In this document: in pieces, positions 25,190-36,970 of the stretch
Numbering within the stretch: position 1 is the first letter of the stretch
Layout of the letters: each line of letters begins with the position of its first letter
Assembly (NCBI RefSeq): GCF_026210795.1
Contig: NC_089444.1
Span: forward strand, 1,416,501 to 1,480,500
DNA length: 64,000 nt
Reading direction: 5' to 3'
DNA from: Rhizophagus irregularis
Lineage: Eukaryota > Glomeromycota > Glomeromycetes > Glomerales > Glomeraceae
The notes under the pieces: model-generated
Seen by the model: the letters and a program-made list of their open reading frames with translations, nothing else
The model's database searches: none
Told to the model about the DNA's origin: nothing
Program-made: the position numbers and the translations under genes

Positions 25190-26040
25190 TTTAGTTTTCA
25201 GTACAGGTTCGTTTCCTTGGTTCTTTTGGTCTCAAGATATTTTTATTTTTATTCTTTTATTTTTATTTCTAACTTACATTCTTACACTTTGCTTCTTACT
25301 AACTCTATTTCATTATTTTTAGGTCCTTTAGTCCTTTCGGTTCTTCAATTAAGGTTCAGTTGTTTTCCACTTTACGTTTCGTTTTTTACTCATTTTTTTT
25401 ATTTTTTTATTTTGTTTCTGTTTCATATTTCGGTTTTCACTAATTTTATTTCATTTTTTTTTAGATCTTTTAGTTCTTTCGGTTCTACAATTAATAAAGG
25501 TATGTTTTTTATTTTTTATTTATTTTTTTTTATTTTGTTTCTATTTTATATTTCGTTTCTTCTAACTTTATTTTTTTACTTTATGGTTTTATTTTTTACT
25601 TGGTTTCCTATCATTATCTTTTGCTATCCAACCTCCTATCATGATCATTTTTTTATTTATTGTCTCATCATTTTCACCTCCTATTACTTCTCATTATTCC
25701 ATCCTTTTCGTCTCCCATTATTTTTTCTATTACATCTTTTCATTTTCCATTAACTTCTTTTTCTCTCCTGTTTACTTCCTATCATTTCTTTTTGTCTCTC
25801 ATCATTCCTTTTCGTTTCCCATCACTCCTCTTTATCTTCCCATCGCTCCTTTTCGTCTCCCATCACCCCTCTTCATCTCTCATCACTCCTCTTCATCCCC
25901 TATCACTCCTCTTCATCTTCTCATCACTTCTTTTCGTCCTCATTTCTCCTCATTACTCTTTTTTACTCTCTTTCATCTTCTATTACTTTTCATTATTCCA
26001 TTGTTATTTCATTTTTTTATTAGCATCCTTCTTCTTGATC
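25190..26040. repeat. Homopyrimidine (T/C) low-complexity tract
   Basis: The plus strand is overwhelmingly T and C for about 850 bp. It begins with drifting TTTATTTTTATTT/TTCGGTTC motifs. From about 25740 to 25990 it becomes an imperfect 18-22-bp minisatellite (CCCATCACTCCTCTTCATCT-type). Long frames here are Phe/Ser/Leu/His low-complexity and not believable genes. It mirrors the purine tract at 1.9-2.4 kb. Confidence 0.7.
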
Positions 26041-26507: not shown

Positions 26508-26910
26508 ATGTTTGTACTTGTGATCAACGCTTTTGCACATAATGCATTTTGCATAAATATTGTTACCGTATTTATTTATACGAATAAAGGTGTTTAATAA
26601 TAAAAAAAAAAGAAAAAAAGTAATACTTTATCTTTTCCAATTAGGGAGAATTTGATATAGCAATGGACAGTAAAGGTAAAGCATATAACATGAATAATAA
26701 TATATTTAAAATTAGAATTATTCAAAATTTTTAAACAAACTTGCAACATAATAAAAATAGTTTTGTGTGATACCAAAGAACCTGAAGGTAAATATAATAT
26801 ACAAAACAAAGTTGAAATATTAAGATTTTTATTTATTAAAAAAACTTAATTGTAAATAATCAAATATAATTAAACCAAATTTGAAGAATGTGATATCAAG
26901 GAATCTAAAG
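26508..26910 (+). CDS. Candidate 5' exons of the micro-exon kinase gene
   Basis: Proposed exons: 26508-26589 (MFVLVINAFAHNAFCINIVT..., a hydrophobic start), 26661-26675 (15 nt), 26761-26787 (27 nt) and 26887-26910 (24 nt). Each is bounded by AG and GT. Every exon ends with one carried base (phase 1). The short exons spell related peptides: (A)MDSK, LCDTKEPE and ECDIKESK. The phase agrees with that needed for the downstream triplet array. The first donor (GTGTTT) and the acceptor at 26886 (TTGAAG) are weak. An alternative acceptor at 26644 is possible. Splicing is inferred. Confidence 0.4.
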
Positions 26911-29143
26911 GTACATCAAACAAGATGAAGGATTATGTTTTTATTTATAAGCAATTCAAATACTACAAATATAATTTAGACTAACTATATTATATAAAAT
27001 TATATTAAATATTTAGCTTGTAAGTTAATATAATAAATTACTCATTATTTTTAATGTATTCTATATAACTAAATAATTTATTTAATGATTAATAATAATG
27101 TAGTTGGTAAGTTATCAGTTATTTAAATCTTTAGTCCTTTACTTTATTTACTCTACATAACATTCAAATAACTAAATTCTCTGTTTAAATAACTATTTAA
27201 TGATTAATTATATTACAGATGGTAAGTTACAATATATATATTATATTTATTTGTTTAATAATTTATATAATTCAACTAATTATATTTTTAATTTAAATAA
27301 CTAGATTGTAAGTAATATATATAGTTTTACAGTAAATACTTTTATATTATCTTTATATCTAACTAATTAATAATTAATAATAATTCAGGGTGTAAGTTAT
27401 ATGATGTCTGTATTAAATTATTTATATAATTTAAGCTAACTAATTTATTTATTTAAAAAAATTATTAAATAATATAGGGGGTATGTCTTATTACTTATTG
27501 TTATAATATTTACATATAATTCATATAATTTAAACTAACTAATTTCTTTATTTAAAAAATTATTAAAAAATATAGAGAGTAAGTTATTTATTTAATTCTA
27601 TTATTACCTATTATTATAATATTTACATATAATTTAAACTAACTAATTTCTTTATTAAAAAATTATTAAACAATATAGAGAGTAAGTTATTTATTTAATT
27701 CTATTATTACTTATTATTATAATATTTACATATTTCCTTATTTAAAAAATTATTAAATTATATAGAGCGTAAGTTATCTATTATTACTTATTGTTATAAT
27801 ATTTACATATAATTTAAACTAACTAATTTCTTTATTTAAAAAATTATTAAATAATATAGGGGGTAAGTCTTATTACTTATTGCTATAGTATTTACATATA
27901 ATTTAAACTAACTAATTTCTTTATTTAAAAAATTATTAAAAAATATAGAGAGTAAGTTATTTATTTAATTCTATTATTACTTATTGTTATAATATTTACA
28001 TATAATTTAAACTAACTAATTTCTTTATTTAAAAAATTATTAAATAATATAGAGCGTAAGTTATTTATTTAATTCTATTATTACTTATTGTTATAATATT
28101 TACATATTTCTTTATTTAAAAAATTATTAAATAATATAGCGGGTAAGTTATTTATTTAATTTTATTATTACTTATTGCTACAATATTTACATATAATTTA
28201 AACTATCTAATTTCTTTATTAAAAAATTATTTTGTAATTTATTTAGTTGGTAAGTCATAGTTTATTTATTTGATTCTATTATTACTTATTGTTATAATGT
28301 TTACATATAATTTAAACTAATTTCCTTATTTAAAAAATTATTAAATATTATAGAGTGTAAGTTATTTATTTAATTCTATCATTACTTATTGTTATAATAT
28401 TTACATATAATTTAAACTAACTAATTTCTTTATATAAAAAATTATTTTGTAATTTATTTAGTTGGTAAGTCATAGTTTATTTAATACTTATTGTTATAAT
28501 ATTTACATATAATTTAAACTAACTAATTTCTTTATTTAAAAAATTATTAAATAATATAGAGAGTAAGTTATTTATTTAATTCTATTATTACTTATTGTTA
28601 TAATATTTACATATAATTTAAACTATCTAATTTCTTTATTAAAAAATTATTTTGTAATTTATTTAGTTGGTAAGTCATAGTTTATTTATTTAATTCTATT
28701 ATTACTTATTGTTATAATATTTACATATAATTTAAACTAACTAATTTCTTTATTTAAAAAATATTAAATAATATAGAAAGTAAGTTATTTATTTAATTCT
28801 ATTATTACTTATTGTTATAATATTACTAATTTCTTTATTTAAAAAATATTAAATAATATAGAGCGTAAGTTATTTATTTAATTCTATTATTACTTATTGT
28901 TATAATATTTACATATAATTTAAACTAACTAATTTCTTTATTTAAAAAATTATTTTGTAATTTATTTAGTTGGTAAATCATAGTTTATTTATTTAATTCT
29001 ATTATTACTTATTGTTATAGTATTACTAATTTTCTTATTTAAAAAATTATTAAATAATATAGAGAGTAAGTTATTTATTTAATTCTATTATTACTTATTG
29101 TTATAATATTTACATATAATTTAAACTAACTAATTTCTTTATT

Positions 29144-29175
29144 TTCGTAAAAAATTTTTTCATCACCTGACCCCT
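29144..29175. repeat. Short insert within an array unit (copy 1)
   Basis: The segment TTCGTAAAAAATTTTTTCAT then CACCTGACCCC interrupts the normal unit just before the acceptor. A near-identical insert is at 30019-30053. The triplet spacing after it (GGA at 29198-29200) is unaffected. Confidence 0.6.
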
Positions 29176-30018
29176 AAAAAATTATTAAATAATATAGGGA
29201 GTAAGTCTTATTACTTATTGTTATAGTATTTACATATAATTTAAACTAACTAATTTCTTTATTTAAAAAATTATTTTGTAATTTATTTAGTTAGTAAGTC
29301 ATAGTTTATTTATTTAATTCTATTATTACTTATTGTTATAATATTTACATATAATTTAAACTAACTAATTTCTTTATTTAAAAAATTATTAAATAATATA
29401 GAGCGTAAGTTATTTATTTAATTCTATTATTACTTATTGTTATAATATTTATATATAATTTAAACTAACTAATTTCTTTATTTAAAAAATTATTTTGTAA
29501 TTTATTTAGTTAGTAAGTCATAGTTTATTTATTTAATTCTATTATTACTCATTGTTATAGTATTTACATATAATTTAAACTAACTAATTTCTTTATTTAA
29601 AAAATTATTAAATAATATAGAGCGTAAGTTATTTATTTAATTTTATTATTACTTATTGTTATAATATTTACATATAATTTAAACTAATTTCCTTATTTAA
29701 AAAATTATTAAATATTATAGAGTGTAAGTTATTTATTTAATTCTATCATTACTTATTGTTATAATATTTACATATAATTTAAACTAACTAATTTCTTTAT
29801 ATAAAAAATTATTTTGTAATTTATTTAGTTGGTAAGTCATAGTTTATTTATTTAATTCTATTATTACCTATTATTATAATATTTACATATAATTTAAACT
29901 AACTAATTTCTTTATTTAAAAAATTACTAAATAATATAGAGAGTAAGTTATTTATTTAATTCTATTATTACTTATTGTTATAATATTTACATATAATTTA
30001 AACTAACTAATTTCTTTA

Positions 30019-30053
30019 TTTTCATAAAAAATTTTTTCATCACCTGACCCCTA
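30019..30053. repeat. Short insert within an array unit (copy 2)
   Basis: TTCATAAAAAATTTTTTCAT then CACCTGACCCC matches the insert at 29144-29175 apart from one base. It shows that larger blocks of the array have been duplicated. The following triplet is GGG (30075-30077). Confidence 0.6.
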
Positions 30054-31542
30054 AAAAATTATTAAATATTATAGGGGGTAAGTCTTATTACTTATTGTTA
30101 TAATATTTACATATAATTTAAACTAACTAATTTCTTTATTTAAAAAATTATTAAATAATATAGAGCGTAAGTTATTTATTTAATTCTATTATTACTTATT
30201 GTTATAATATTTACATATAATTTGAACTAACTAATTTCTTTATTAAAAAATTATTTTGTAATTTATTTAGTTGGTAAGTCATAGTTTATTTATTTAATTC
30301 TATTATTACTTATTGTTATAATATTTACATATAATTTAAACTAACTAATTTCTTTATTTAAAAAATTATTAATTAATATAGGGCGTAAGTTATTTATTTA
30401 ATTCTATTATTACTTATTGTTATAATATTTATATATTATTTAAACTAACTAATTTCTTTATTTAAAAAATTATTTTGTAATTTATTTAGTTAGTAAGTCA
30501 TAGTTTATTTATTTAATTCTATTATTACTCATTGTTATAATATTTACATATAATTTAAACTAACTAATTTCTTTATTTAAAAAATTATTGAATAATATAG
30601 AGCGTAAGTTATTTATTTAATTCTATTATTACTTATTGTTATAATATTTACATATAATTTAAACTAATTTCCTTATTTAAAAAATTATTAAATATTATAG
30701 AGTGTAAGTTATTTATTTAATTCTATCATTACTTATTGTTATAATATTTACATATAATTTAAACTAACTAATTTCTTTATATAAAAAATTATTTTGTAAT
30801 TTATTTAGTTGGTAAGTCATAGTTTATTTATTTAATTCTATTATTACCTATTATTATAATATTTACATATAATTTAAACTAACTAATTTCTTTATTTAAA
30901 AAATTATTGAATAATATAGAGAGTAAGTTATTTATTTAATTCTATTATTACTTATTGTTATAATATTTTATATAATTTAAACTAACTAATTTTTTATTGT
31001 AATTTATTTAGTTAGTAAGTCATAGTTTATTTATTTAATTCTATTATTACTTATTGTTATAGTATTTACATATAATTTAAACTAACTAATTTCTTTATTT
31101 AAAAAATTATTAAATAATATAGAGCGTAAGTTATTTATTTAATTCTATTATTACTTATTGTTATAATATTTACATATTTCCTTATTTAAAAAATTATTAA
31201 ATAATATAGAGTGTAAGTTATCTATTATTACTTATTGTTATAATATTTACATATAATTTAAACTAACATATTTTTTTATTTAAAAAATTATTAAATAATA
31301 TAGGGGGTAAGTCTTATTACTTATTGTTATAGTATTTACATATAATTTAAACTAACTAATTTCTTTATTTAAAAAATTATTAAATAATATAGAGCGTAGG
31401 TTATTTATTTAATTCTATTATTACTTATTGTTATAATATTTATATATAATTTGAACTAACTAATTTCTTTATTTAAAAAATTATTAAATAATATAGAGAG
31501 TAAGTTATTTATTTAATTCTATTATAACTTATTGTTATAATA

Positions 31543-31873
31543 CTTTGCTATCAGTGGTGATTTTTTTGGTAGTATTTTATAATGCTTTTTAAATAATATT
31601 AATAGGAATTTTTGACATGTCATGTAAATATCATATTTAATAACATATATATTAATAAGTCTATTAACAAGTATAATATTTAATATTAATATTGTAACTA
31701 ATATAAAAGGATAATTGTCATATATTACAAAATTATTATTTTTTTACATTTCATTGTAATATGATATTTTAATATATATTAAATTATAATAGCAATTATA
31801 TTGTCAATTATTACAAAATATACATTATAGGATTATTATATGGTAATCAAAAAAATAGGCACTGATAGCTAAG
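31543..31873. mobile_element. Tc1/mariner-like MITE inside the array (copy 1)
   Basis: The 331-bp element has termini CTTTGCTATCAGTG and, reverse-complemented, CTTAGCTATCAGTG. TA is duplicated on both sides (31541-31542 and 31874-31875). Removing it restores the array consensus TTATAATATTTACATA exactly, so the TA insertion site is certain. It lies inside an intron-like part of a unit and leaves the triplets intact. Confidence 0.8.
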
Positions 31874-32658
31874 TATTTACATATAATTTAAACTAACTAA
31901 TTTCTTTATTTAAAAAATTATTTTGTAATTTATTTAGTTGGTAAGTCATAATTTATTTATTTAATTCTATTATTACTTATTGTTATAGCATTTACATATA
32001 ATTTAAACTAACTAATTTCTTTATTTAAAAACTTATTAAATAATATAGAGCGTAAGTTATTTATTTAATTCTATTATTACTCATTATTATAATATTTACA
32101 TATTTCCTTATTTAAAAAATTATTAAATAATATAGATTGTAAGTTATCTATTATTACTTATTGTTATAATATTTACATATAATTTAAACTAACTAATTTA
32201 TTTATTTAAAAAATTATTAAATAATATAGGGGGTAAGTCTTATCATTTATTGTTATAATATTTACATATAATTTAAACTAACTAATTTCTTTATTTAAAA
32301 AATTATTAAATAATATAGAGAGTAAGTTATTTATTTAATTCTATTATTACTTATTGCTATAATATTTACATATAATTTGAACTAACTAATTTTTTTATTT
32401 AAAAAATTATTAAATAATATAGAGAGTAAGTTATTTATTTAATTCTATTATTACTTATTGTTATAATATTTACATAAAATTTAAACTAACTAATTTCTTT
32501 ATTTAAAAAATTATTAAATAATATAGAGCGTAAGTTATTTATTTAATTCTATTATTACTTATTGTTATAATATTACTAATTTCTTTATTTAAAAAATTAT
32601 TAAATAATATAGTTCGTAAGTTATTTATTTAATTCTATTATAACTTATTGTTATAATA

Positions 32659-32980
32659 CTTTGCTATCAGTGGTGATTTTTTTGGTAGTATTTTATAATG
32701 CTTTTTAAATAATATTAATAGGAATTTTTGACATGTCATGTAAATATCATATTTAATAACATATATATTAATAAGTCTATTAACAAGTATAATATTTAAT
32801 ATTAATATTGTAACTAATATAAAAGGATAATTGTCATATATTACAAAATTATTATTTTTTTACATTTCATTGTAATATGATATTTTAATATATATTAAAT
32901 TATTATATTGTCAATTATTACAAAATATACATTATAGGATTATTATATGGTAATCAAAAAAATAGGCACTGATAGCTAAG
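32659..32980. mobile_element. Tc1/mariner-like MITE inside the array (copy 2)
   Basis: Almost identical to 31543-31873 with the same termini and TA site (32657-32658 and 32981-32982), but about 9 bp shorter. The flanking array units are duplicated too, so this copy arose by a duplication of about 1.1 kb and not by a second transposition. Confidence 0.75.
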
Positions 32981-35516
32981 TATTTACATATAATTTAAAC
33001 TAACTAATTTCTTTATTTAAAAAATTATTTTGTAATTTATTTAGTTATTAAGTCATAATTTATTTATTTAATTCTATTATTACTTATTGTTATAGCATTT
33101 ACATATAATTTAAACTAACTAATTTCTTTATTTAAAAACTTATTAAATAATATATAAGGCGTAAGTTATTTATTTAATTCTATTATTACTCATTATTATA
33201 ATATTTACATATTTCCTTATTTAAAAAATTATTAAATAATATAGATTGTAAGTTATCTATTATTACTTATTGTTATAATGTTACATATAATTTAAACTAA
33301 CTAATTTATTTATTTAAAAAAATTATTTAAATAATATAGGGGTAAGTCTTATCGTTTATTGTTATAATATTTACATATAATTTAAACTAACTAATTTCTT
33401 TATTTAAAAAATTATTAAATAATATAGAGAGTAAGTTATTTATTTAATTCTATTATTACTTATTGCTATAATATTTACATATAATTTGAACTAACTAATT
33501 TTTTTATTTAAAAAATTATTAAATAATATAGAGAGTAAAGTTATTTATTTAATTCTATTATTACTTATTGTTATAATATTTACATAAAATTTAAACTAAC
33601 TAATTTCTTTATTTAAAAAATTATTAAATAATATAGAGCGTAAGTTATTTATTTAATTCTATTATTACTTATTGTTATAATATTACTAATTTCTTTATTT
33701 AAAAAATTATTAAATAATATAGAGAGTAAGTTATTTATTTAATTCTATTATTACTTATTATTATTAATATACATAAAATTTAAACTAACTAATTTCTTTA
33801 TTTAAAAATTATTTTGTAATTTATTTAGTTGGTAAGTCATAGTTTATTTAATACTTATTGTTATAATATTTACATATAATTTAAACTAACTAATTTCTTT
33901 ATTTAAAAAATTATTTTGTAATTTATTTAGTTGGTAAGTCATAGTTTATTTAATACTTATTGTTATAATATTTACATATAATTTAAACTAACTAATTTAT
34001 TTATTTAAAAAATTATTAAATAATATAGAGAGTAAGTTATTTATTTAATTCTATTATTACTTATTGTTATAATATTTACATATAATTTAAACTATCTAAT
34101 TTCTTTATTTAAAATATTATTTTGTAATTTATTTAGTTGGTAAGTCATAGTTTATTTATTTAATTCTATTATTAATTATTGCTATAATGATTGCATATAA
34201 TTTAAACTAATTTCTTTATTTAAAAAAATTATTAAATAATATAGAGCGTAAGTTATTTATTTAATTCTATTATTACTTATTGTTATAATATTACTAATTT
34301 CTTTATTTAAAAAATTATTAAATAATATAGAGAGTAAGTTATTTATTTAATTCTATTATTACTTATTATTATAATATTTACATAAAATTTAAACTAACTA
34401 ATTTCTTTATTTAAAAAATTATTTTGTAATTTATTTAGTTGGTAAGTCATAGTTTATTTAATACTTATTGTTATAATATTTACATATAATTTAAACTAAC
34501 TAATTTCTTTATTTAAAAAATTATTTTGTAATTTATTTAGTTGGTAAGTCATAGTTTATTTAATACTTATTGTTATAATATTTACATATAATTTAAACTA
34601 ACTAATTTATTTATTTAAAAAATTATTAAATAATATAGAGAGTAAGTTATTTATTTAATTCTATTATTACTTATTGTTATAATATTTACATATAATTTAA
34701 ACTATCTAATTTCTTTATTTAAAATATTATTTTGTAATTTATTTAGTTGGTAAGTCATAGTTTATTTATTTAATTCTATTATTAATTATTGCTATAATGA
34801 TTGCATATAATTTAAACTAATTTCTTTATTTAAAAAATTATTAAATAATATAGAGCGTAAGTTATTTATTTAATTCTATTATTACTTATTGTTATAATAT
34901 TTACATATAATTTAAACTAACTAATTTCTTTATTTAAAAAATTATTAAATAATATAGGGCGTAAGTTATTTATTTAATTCTATTATTACTTATTGTTATA
35001 ATATTTACATATAATTTAAACTAACTAATTTCTTTATTTAAAAAATTATTAAATAATATAGAGAGTAAGTTATTTATTTAATTCTATTATTACTTATTGT
35101 TATAATATTACTAATTTCTTTATTTAAAAAATTATTAAATAATATAGAGAGTAGGTTATTTATTTAATTCTATTATTACTTATTGTTATAATATTTATGC
35201 ATAATTTAAACTAACTAATTTCTTTATTTAAAAAACTATCTATAATATAGCTTGTAAGATATTTATATTTCTATTTTTATATATTTTATATAAGAAATAT
35301 GTATATAATATCTATTTGTTAACTGAATTCTTTAATTTAAAAAATATCTATTGCTTTAGTTGGTAAGTTGTAAATTATAGGTTATTATATATTTATCTAA
35401 AAACTAAGATTTATATTACATCAAATTCTTTATTTAAATTTTAGAGTAAGTAATAATTTATTTTAGTGTAATTATAATACAAGCTATAATATAATTTTAA
35501 CTGTTTAAATTTATAG

Positions 35517-36970
35517 ATTTGGAGAAAGTGAAAATGCAATTATAAATGATTTTATTCTTAAAAATGGATTAAAATGGATTCCTTATAACAAATTTAAAAA
35601 TGTTGAATATTTTAATGAAGGAGGATTTGGTACTATATATAAAGCTACTTGGTTAAAGAATAATAGAGATAAAAAAGTAATTCTTAAATGTCATAAGGAT
35701 TTAAATGAAAACTTAAATGAATTTTTAAAAGAAGTATGATAGTATATTATTTTTTATTTTAATTTAAGATTTATTTATATTAATAAGTTATTATTTTTTA
35801 TAGTGGAAATATCATGCAAGTGTATTAAGTTCAAATTATATTATATATTTTTATGGATTTACAGAAGATCCAAATACTTCAAAATATATGGTAGTAATGG
35901 ATTATGCAAATAAAGGTAATTTAAGAGAAAATTTAACAAGTATAGTTGAAAATAATTGGAATCAAAAATTATATATGTTATACGAAATTATTTCTGGACT
36001 TAATATGATACATGAAGAAAATCTTATTCATTGTGATTTTCATGATGGTAATATTTTAAATCATAATGATGAAAATAAGGATAAATTTTATATTAGTGAT
36101 TTAGGATTATGTCAACCCGTAAAATCGCTTTTGAAAAAGTATGATATTTATGGTGTTCTACCATTTATGGCTCCTGAAGTTTTAAGAGGCAAATCTTATA
36201 CTCCAGCTAGTGATATATATAGTTTTTCTATAATTATGTGGGAACTTACATCTGGGGTACCACCATTTAATAATAGAGCACATGATATTCAACTTAGTTT
36301 AAGTATTTGTAAAGGTGAACGTCCTGAAATTATTGAAAACACTCCACAATGTTATGTAGATTTAATGAAAAAATGTTGGAATGAAGATTCATCAGAAAGA
36401 CCATCTTCTAAAGAAGTATTGAGTATTATTGAAAAATGGATATTCCGTCCTTCTGATGATAAAATTAATGAAGAATTAAAAAGCAACATTATGGAATTTA
36501 TAAATGCACCAATTGGGCATAACAATCTTGTTACTAAATCTCATCCTAAAGCATATTATACAGGTCGCTTACTTGATTTTACTAGTAAAAAATTGAATGA
36601 AATTCTTGAAAGTAAAAATTTGAATTATTGTGCGATTAAAGATTTGAGGTCATTAGGTATATACTATAATATATAAAAAATTAATCTTGCAAATTATTTA
36701 TATGAAAATTAATTTATTTATTTAATTATTGAAACAGATGAGAATACTAGTAAAAAGTCGAATGAAATTCTTGAAAATGAAAATTCACAAGCTAGTGTAG
36801 AAGCAAATGAAATTCTAGTAAGTGAAGATTTGAATGATTATACAATTAAGGATTTAGGATCATTAGGTATGTACTGTGATATATAAAAGAATTAATCTTG
36901 CAAATTATTTATGTGAAATTAATTTTATTTAATATTTAATTATTTAGATATTAAAACAGATGATAATTAA
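35517..36970 (+). CDS. TKL-type protein kinase (3' exons of the micro-exon gene)
   Basis: Exons 35517-35733, 35804-36656, 36738-36866 and 36960-36970, all GT-AG. The first needs two carried bases from upstream. Read from TTT at 35518 it gives FGESENAIINDFILK, then WIPYNKF, a Gly loop NEGGFGTIYKA and KVILKC (beta-3 Lys). The intron after FLKE matches the position in the minus-strand kinases. The C-lobe has HCDFHDGN (HRD Arg replaced by Cys, Asp and Asn kept), SDLGLC and MAPEVL, so catalysis is plausible. The tail has HPKAYYTGRLLDF, then a repeated acidic segment NEIL...IKDL-SLG encoded once in exon 2 and again in exon 3. If the 36657 intron is retained, the protein ends GIYYNI at 36676. Substrate unknown. 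Confidence 0.9.
36657..36959 (+). repeat. Tandem duplication of C-terminal exon plus intron
   Basis: The intron starting at 36657 (GTATATACTATAATATATAA) and the one at 36867 (GTATGTACTGTGATATATAA) are alike over most of their length, including TTAATCTTGCAAATTATTTA. The preceding exon ends, DLRSLG and DLGSLG, are paralogous. This is a local exon-intron duplication in phase 1. Confidence 0.8.

Follow-up and report, generated by a model that had tools for sequence, protein, structure and literature searches.

Arrays of probable codon-sized micro-exons in protein-kinase genes of Rhizophagus irregularis, predicted to encode hypervariable N-terminal segments

Schistosome micro-exon genes resemble the arrays described here in combining many small exons with variable proteins; most of their symmetric exons exceed one codon in length, and none of them is a kinase gene. 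At recursive-splicing ratchet points, an acceptor lies closely before a donor and the junction keeps no exon sequence, whereas 3 nt remain in the R. irregularis arrays. The closest relatives in kind are found in Tuber, a fungal lineage distant from R. irregularis, where Iotti et al. 2012 reportedly described nank genes of Tuber melanosporum with codon-sized mini-exons. Papers citing the Tuber nank work, in the passages that treat it, attribute dozens of 3-bp mini-exons to these NACHT-ANK genes and stress alternative splicing (PMC4986451, PMC9815663, PMC3689799, PMC10197012). For a spliced 1-nt exon, the single-nucleotide exon of Arabidopsis APC11 is a precedent (PMC4674806); in the part of that source considered here it is a lone exon reported in one gene, while in R. 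irregularis the 1-nt exon ends an array.

The window analysed is a 64,000-nt stretch of the Rhizophagus irregularis genome (NC_089444.1, positions 1,416,501 to 1,480,500, forward strand). Its micro-exon array (27017..35445, plus strand) has, on recounting, the same 77 acceptor/donor sites and 15 distinct triplets given in the preliminary description: 74 putative exons in which AG and GT stand exactly 3 nt apart, two 2-nt sites (GC at 33159-33160 and GG at 33340-33341) and one 1-nt exon (single A at 35445), with 76 intron-sized intervals. The triplets are AGA (18), TTG (16), AGC (14), GGG (5), AGT (4), TTA (4), ATT (3), CTT (2), GGC (2) and six singletons. Intron-sized spacing had been claimed throughout and holds for 74 of the 76 intervals, at 81-132 nt; the remaining two, of 438 and 543 nt, each contain an inserted element. 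The branch motif ascribed to every interval occurs as CTAAC, CTAAT or CTAAA in 70 of the 76 and not in the other six. The description's further remark, that it knew of no described gene with so many 3-nt exons, needs qualifying in view of the dozens of 3-bp mini-exons reported in Tuber melanosporum NACHT-ANK genes.

Conserved framework triplets lie at the two ends of the array. Those at the 5' end (27017..27391, plus strand), which have a similar counterpart in paralogous arrays, are CTT (27017-27019), TTG (27104-27106), ATG (27219-27221), ATT (27305-27307) and GGT (27389-27391), and, together with the next triplet, they give A F D D W W when phase 1 is used; those at the 3' end (35251..35362, plus strand) are CTT (35251-35253) and TTG (35360-35362). 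A stretch of damaged units (33045..33341, plus strand) belongs to the second copy of a ~1.1-kb duplication. It holds the two 2-nt sites and a unit at 33045-33047, outside the count of 77, whose donor after TTA is dead (TTAAG, at 33048); as assembled, the frame of the window array is lost there. The quality reported for the assembly, Q36.27, would correspond to about two errors over 8.5 kb.

Upstream of the array, on the plus strand, lie exon 1 (26663..26675; ATG GAC AGT AAA G, ending in phase 1) and exon 2 (26761..26787; 27 nt, entered and left in phase 1, with the in-frame peptide VLCDTKEPE). Among the 15 array genes of a first set, exon 1 measures 13, 19 or 22 nt, a length of 1 mod 3 in every gene (15/15), and exon 2, recognised in seven, is 27 nt in all seven. 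Exon 3 was recognised in eight genes, with lengths of 99, 114 or 123 nt that are all 0 mod 3 (8/8). The window gene is not one of the eight; relative to its paralogues it lacks the usual exon 3 acceptor region, and sequence comparison by eye gives only a probable exon 3 remnant (ECDIKESK; 26887..26910, plus strand), of uncertain use.

Downstream, the single-nucleotide exon A (35445..35445, plus strand) shifts phase 1 to phase 2, as the kinase exon requires. The first kinase exon (35517..35733, plus strand), placed from its translation, starts A TTT GGA GAA (EFGESENAIINDF...), and the second (35804..36676, plus strand) carries HCDFHDGN and DLG motifs and a TAA stop at 36674-36676. The kinase translation includes GGFGTIYK, VILK, HCDFHDGN and DLG, which we take to be kinase catalytic motifs, and Pfam searches with the relatives P0001 and P0003 returned kinase families only, the best being PF07714 and PF00069. 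Judged by its sequence, the product downstream of the array is a protein tyrosine/serine-threonine kinase, TKL-like. The deposited protein P0050 (labelled partial) is the window gene product, with 343 of 362 positions identical in an ungapped alignment, and starts FGESEN.

The array unit of the window is carried by at least 32 loci in R. irregularis, and a same-strand kinase exon lies within 5 kb downstream in 32 of 32 loci, as grouped by hand from the matches listed with 48 kinase rows used. The arrays were clearly built by tandem duplication; C4, with 19 triplets, is an example of a short one. Across 18 array segments, 602 of 621 sites have a 3-nt exon as defined by splice signals. The near-zero entropy of the AG and GT columns comes partly from the construction of the search and was excluded as evidence in favour of independent anchors: when units were anchored on upstream sequence without splice sites, independently of the site search, AG-3nt-G(T/C) was intact in 413 of 425 (18 array segments, 15 genes). 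Triplets starting with GT, which would give AG|GT, are nearly absent (3/601). Excluded from the site and stop counts were five runs that lie outside any array and arose by chance (C2 plus strand, C3 plus strand, C6:375810, C7:2561577 and C7:2562921), upstream matches labelled ta, every site of C24 other than 3 nt with GTAAG, all non-GTAAG sites of C7:2578651, and one non-3-nt and one GTCAG site of C7:2573588.

The 1-nt exon A closes 14 of the 15 genes of the first set and both arrays fetched later. Among the 100 genome-wide matches to its motif listed (of 137), 74 precede a kinase exon, and in 72 cases the distance is 51-76 nt; of the 131 kinase exons examined among the 150 listed, 74 have the motif. 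Viral contigs scanned for it gave no match. Read from phase 1, 11 of 14 arrays or 3' end segments are open, as are both later arrays, in a test that left out one spurious T site of C7:3155k. Read-through fails in the other three: two 2-nt sites interrupt it in the window array, two 4-nt sites in C3 and one TAG in C6:380k. A long alternative last exon, suggested by the deposited models P0001 and P0004, was rejected, being frame-compatible in only two of 14 arrays, C3 (open) and the window (with a stop).

The order of the triplets is constrained as coding sequence. Joined in phase 1, adjacent triplets form a stop in one of 579 pairs, against 14.2 expected from within-array shuffling, and none of 2000 shuffles gave as few. 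Block duplication was controlled by comparing lags among distinct T-ending pairs per array, which form stops in 1 of 142 cases at lag 1 and 88 of 722 at lags 2-7 (Fisher 9e-7). Pairing in reverse order gives 18 stops in 579, and the two held-out arrays, fetched later, have none against 4.6 expected (3.07 + 1.52; P=0.0027). Pairs spanning non-3-nt sites were left out of the shuffling, reverse-order and lag counts; the per-array count for the window is one stop pair if such sites are skipped over. A phase 2 reading was rejected, with 80 stops in 579. Stop pairs at lag 2 (12 of 129) are not clearly avoided, an argument against selection acting on the skipping of single exons. Since order is constrained at neighbours and not at lag 2, the triplets appear to be included in order; this differs from the alternative splicing stressed, in the passages considered, for Tuber.

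Variability is focal: the ends of the arrays are conserved, and the inner triplets are hypervariable between identical introns. In 2032 pairs of identical-flank units from different arrays (0/76 differences), the triplets differ at positions T1, T2 and T3 in 69%, 32% and 65%, respectively. All 16 arrays seen at their 5' end have T as the third base (T3) of the ATT framework triplet, which is the first base of TGG; T3 of GGT is likewise T in 16 of 16 arrays, and the residue after the framework TGG codon is always aromatic (W, Y or F).

The array is probably a run of codon-sized micro-exons within a protein-kinase gene, encoding a hypervariable N-terminal segment, a reading that builds on the observed anatomy, family, phase consistency, adjacency-dependent stop avoidance and focal variability. 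A transcript would start at exons 1-3 and run through the array, each 81-132-nt interval being recognised by the spliceosome as one intron and the triplets joined in order, and the 1-nt exon after them would set the kinase frame. Because the upstream exons end after the first codon base, residues would be split across neighbouring triplets, each consisting of the last base of one and the first two of the next. The predicted product has, in order, a conserved N-terminal piece, the short framework D-W-(W/Y/F), some 10-65 hypervariable residues, the framework F-E-F-G-(K/E)-S and the kinase domain. As each unit supplies one codon's bases, gain or loss of units would keep the frame and the stretch could change fast. 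We infer that the array is spliced and translated, and that the variable stretch may serve recognition or ligand binding. The single-codon micro-exons first proposed are thereby strongly supported in size by the reading-frame evidence, although they are most likely read across neighbours (phase 1) and not as whole codons.

Whole codons would result if the triplets, still real micro-exons, were in phase 0 and the 1-nt exon gave way to a last exon of 5 nt, AGTAA (donor GTAATA), translation beginning inside the array or via another exon. We consider this unlikely. Several gene models do hold strings resembling phase-0 triplets plus the 5-nt last exon, and strings that end in SKFGKS, as such an exon would encode, occur in seven of 99 deposited kinase relatives (P0014, P0015, P0016, P0019, P0026, P0034 and P0045). 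These strings are low-complexity, and G, L, I, M, R or V abound in most of them; P0046 has a comparable string with SKSGKS, P0028 is a doubtful case, and at least seven more relatives start MSKFGKS. Such models may, however, be ab initio calls that disallow a 1-nt exon. The FEFG or DWW/DWY framework, for its part, was found in none of the 100 deposited proteins fetched, and queries with the spliced N termini of C2 (four matches, with P0001 the one compared by alignment) and C14 (no match) yielded no deposited protein shown to carry array-coded residues. The middle base of the triplets, G or T in 587 of 602, would under phase 0 be the second base of a codon and constrained as such, where phase 1 makes it an unexpectedly constrained wobble base; entropy by triplet position cannot alone separate the two. 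Phase-0 stops are likewise rare (1/601, where base composition would give 17.5), in a phase that shuffling cannot test, yet C17 and C28 have in-frame TGA triplets. The first framework triplet varies at T3 (CTT/CTC/CTA), synonymously if read in phase 0, but changes at T3 of ATT and GGT would be synonymous too, and there T is found in every case. Stop avoidance across neighbours would be left unexplained, and phase 1 is the phase in which exons 1-3 end.

A neutral or structural minisatellite in one long intron removed whole, its spacing inherited from a founding unit, is highly improbable. Tandem duplication is what it would predict, and of three deposited models that bypass the array (P0001, P0003 and P0004) P0003 joins exon 3 straight to the kinase exon. 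Such direct joining would put the beginning of the kinase exon out of frame if no internal acceptor came into play, and the window gene has none (ATAAAT instead of ATAGAT). Unit order in the arrays is not free of frame constraint, stop avoidance depends on adjacency, conserved ends enclose a variable middle, the anchored units are nearly all intact and every grouped locus has its kinase exon downstream on the same strand. The earlier argument that neutral drift would not keep the spacing was plausible, and the satellite is indeed rejected; that argument is no proof alone, and the frame tests supply it. Recursive-splicing ratchet points, the alternative raised in the preliminary description, would remove the long interval stepwise and leave no exon sequence, and despite the acceptor followed immediately by a donor in each unit and a single AG|GT site of zero length noticed by eye at the 3' end of C24, they are not needed and are the least credible explanation, as 602 of 621 sites hold not a zero-length exon but a 3-nt insert under coding constraint, with GT-starting triplets nearly absent.

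The predicted codon-sized micro-exons place the R. irregularis genes beside Tuber nank, where, as far as the sources quoted describe it, 3-bp exons likewise number in the tens or dozens, in an expanded fungal gene family believed to diversify a region for recognition. Tandem 3-nt exons bounded by GT-AG signals and an expanded paralogous family are found in R. irregularis as well; the downstream product is a kinase and not a NACHT-ANK NLR, the array is N-terminal to it, where the Tuber array is described in the C-terminal part of the NLR, and a 1-nt exon closes it. The kinase arrays add a variant to the codon-sized micro-exon arrays already known from Tuber NACHT-ANK genes.

More tentatively, and short of a view that we would favour, neighbouring 3-nt exons that co-write residues might give R. 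irregularis a near-unlimited N-terminal recognition repertoire on a common kinase. Dozens of kinase genes would each have such an array, diversity arising from duplication, loss and rearrangement of units and from very fast change confined to the triplets; the outcome would be comparable to a constant receptor with a variable loop and might serve the recognition of partners or of self versus non-self.

The arrays point to a route to protein diversity that standard gene annotation misses; if the reading is true, N termini of the whole kinase family would be missing or wrong in the deposited annotations covered here, the partial P0050 being an example. Annotation of R. irregularis DAOM197198 has drawn on Nanopore as well as Illumina RNA-seq (PMC10234402). 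If spliced as predicted, about 75 3-nt exons and one 1-nt exon would follow consecutively in one gene, a severe test of intron-definition splicing. Identical introns beside hypervariable 3-nt exons make the origin of the variability, by selection or targeted change, directly testable, and in a model arbuscular mycorrhizal fungus. For fungi whose hyphae fuse and which live within plants, the arrays may also supply a molecular candidate for recognition.

The observation of an acceptor AG, a triplet (a predicted 3-nt exon) and a donor GT repeated in tandem upstream of kinase exons is confirmed as real and well beyond chance. For the window array (27017-35445), the preliminary description counted 77 sites, 74 of them with exactly 3 nt from AG to GT, and 15 different triplets; these counts are correct, and the branch motif that it reported (CTAAC/T/A) is found in 70 of the 76 intervals, which measure 81-132 nt except for two that carry an insert. 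The window spans C16:1416501-1480500. Searches of the genome (146.7 Mb, 32 contigs) with the array unit gave at least 429 and at least 248 matches, and all 32 array loci grouped from the matches listed have a same-strand kinase exon within 5 kb downstream. We read, in whole or in part, 15 array genes (18 segments, the first set) and then two more outside the 32 loci. Of the 621 sites in the first set, 602 have exactly 3 nt and 14 consist of a terminal 1-nt A; five more have 1, 2 or 4 nt. Units were also located through the upstream TATAATTTAAACTA region (three variants), so as not to pick them by their splice sites, and AG-3nt-G(T/C) follows 413 of these 425 anchors. Eight units of the C3 array (locus L024) have GC donors (GCAAG) with the 3-nt exon kept, and one further GC donor was found in the remaining arrays. 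The arrays at C7:2565989-2579134 and C17:4263205-4263850 are broken by longer inserts, which look transposon-derived; the 3-nt spacing is kept on both sides.

Upstream of the array, exon 1 begins with ATG and is followed, where present, by exons 2 and 3. Exon 1 has 13, 19 or 22 nt, i.e. 1 mod 3 in 15/15 genes, exon 2 has 27 nt in all seven genes where it was recognised, and exon 3 has 99, 114 or 123 nt, 0 mod 3 in all eight; the array is thus entered in phase 1, each codon taking its first base from the end of one triplet and its other two from the start of the triplet that follows. Eleven of 16 array 5' ends begin CT(T/C/A) TT(G/A) ATG ATT GGT, apart from one departure each in C24, C4 and C7:3155k, and the other five begin ATT GGT. 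The 3' ends read (C/T/G)TT T(T/C)(G/A), then a 1-nt exon A. The exception is C24 (C24:3399640-3400120, minus strand), with a zero-length AG|GT site in place of the last TTG exon and a 1-nt exon T instead of A; its frame into the kinase exon is nonetheless kept, as judged by eye. The exon after the array begins (A/G) TTT G and requires two upstream bases, which phase 1 plus the 1-nt exon supplies. The 1-nt exon motif has 137 genome-wide matches (at most two mismatches) vs 35 for the reversed pattern; of the 100 matches listed, 74 have a kinase exon downstream, in 72 cases at 51-76 nt, and of 40 exact matches 39 have one. For 24 of 29 exon 3 matches a kinase exon lies 2.1-11 kb away; among the remaining five, C19 does have a kinase match, and four have none within 20 kb in the compared kinase list. 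The R. irregularis protein deposited as P0002 carries the label MULE-transposase-like, but its final part matches exons 1-3 of the kinase family; it is perhaps a fused gene model or reflects a nearby transposon.

If triplets are joined in phase 1, a triplet ending in T followed by one starting AG, AA or GA makes a stop. Such pairs occur once among 579 adjacent pairs of the first set, where 14.2 are expected from shuffling triplets within arrays (0/2000 shuffles were as low) and 27 from positional base composition, and AG freely follows a triplet whose last base is A, C or G (29, 12 and 32 times). Because tandem duplication makes pairs non-independent, distinct adjacent pairs were set against distinct pairs spaced further apart in those arrays: stops make up 1/142 at lag 1 vs 88/722 at lags 2-7 together (Fisher 9e-7), or 1/51 vs 29/170 with each pair type taken once family-wide (P=0.002). 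The hypothesis had already been stated when two further arrays were fetched; they contain none vs 4.6 expected (P=0.0027). We know of no splicing rule that makes an exon depend on the last base of an exon ~100 nt upstream; joining of the triplets in mRNA would impose this dependence. Lag 2 (12/129) is without clear avoidance, which suggests that there is no selection for leaving out exons one at a time.

Some deposited gene models are consistent with triplets being whole codons (phase 0) and the last exon having 5 nt. This would explain the G or T middle base of 587/602 triplets, which phase 1 does not, and phase 0 gives one stop in 601 codons vs 17.5 from base composition, whole-triplet shuffling being blind to this phase. 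Seven deposited relatives carry low-complexity strings ending SKFGKS (P0046 has a similar one, and P0028 is a doubtful case), and MSKFGKS is the start of at least seven others; this fits models in which 3-nt exons or the last exon were called in phase 0. Over seven residues, no string of this kind agrees with the arrays we read when these are translated in phase 0. Phase 1 is favoured by the T that closes both the ATT and the GGT triplet in 16/16 arrays, by the aromatic residue after this framework position, and by the TTG/TCG exchange near the array end, synonymous in phase 1 only. Against phase 1, its framework is present in none of the 99 deposited proteins related to the FGKS region of the kinase. 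GT at triplet positions 1-2 is almost absent from the first set, and L049, a more diverged array, looks less strict. P0034 joins a low-complexity string to exons 1-3. The P0001 and P0004 models make the last exon long, and the P0003 model uses an acceptor that lies within the kinase exon; the long last exon is frame-compatible in only 2/14 arrays and open in one.

Of the 14 arrays whose 3' end was read, 11 are open when entered in phase 1, as are both later arrays. Two of the 11, the last 6 triplets of C17 and the last 20 of C7:2569845, were scored as 3' segments because inserts cut them off from the rest, and C25 was scored without joining its kinase exon. Predicted products, e.g. DWYATTNWDYDYSNYYWGDYGDYDYYFANGANWDYSTTTFEFGKSGN (C6) and DWWTAPAHAFALAHHRDDYDHPAYDHPAYDHPFEFGKSGN (C14), conserve D-W-(W/Y/F) and F-E-F-G. 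Not open are C3 (two 4-nt sites), C6:380k (a TAG) and the window array, whose predicted phase-1 product as far as its damaged units is AFDDWWEKKREKPVEFEIEKLERIKLKQFERELGLKQFEIKQWEQIEHWEKKL. There, two 2-nt sites and a dead donor are packed into 300 bp of the second copy of a ~1.1 kb block that is present twice, and the frame is lost in a literal reading. The 32-chromosome Nanopore assembly of DAOM197198 is described as polished to Q36.27 (PMC10234402); since about two errors are expected per 8.5 kb at Q36, the damage could be assembly error, or real decay. A ~330-bp MITE-like element with inverted ends TTTGCTATCAGTG...CACTGATAGC lies in an array intron (31543-31873 and 32659-32982, bounds by eye), duplicated together with ~1.1 kb of array, its copies differing by a 9-bp gap. 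A short TCGTAAAAAATTTTTTCATCACCTGACCCC-like insert in two introns (~29145-29174 and ~30022-30051) was apparently copied along with a block of units, and a pyrimidine-rich minisatellite, TCCCATCACTCCTTTTCGTC (25765-25960, period 20-61), lies ~0.7 kb upstream of exon 1.

Variation is focused on the triplets. Where two units from different arrays agree at all 76 intron flank bases (2032 pairs), the three triplet positions differ in 69, 32 and 65%; for 625 such pairs within arrays the values are 33, 16 and 31%. In 476 units with a close neighbour, flank sites differ by 1.0% vs 35, 24 and 41% at triplet positions, and 190 units that share the same 17-nt and 15-nt flanks carry 20 triplets between them. 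Any of three processes could produce this: strong diversifying selection, targeted change, or gene conversion of the introns combined with selection acting on the triplets.

A single 1-nt exon has been described in Arabidopsis (PMC4674806), and tyrosine-kinase-like genes are reported to have expanded in R. irregularis (PMC4219462). Among the titles and abstract openings listed, at most 20 per search and mostly outside subscription journals, none reports arrays of micro-exons for Rhizophagus or for kinases. Codon-sized micro-exon arrays as such are already known, from Tuber NACHT-ANK genes, and those predicted for the kinase family differ from them. The arrays are best read as predicted codon-sized micro-exons in phase 1, which would encode a hypervariable N-terminal segment of the kinase family.
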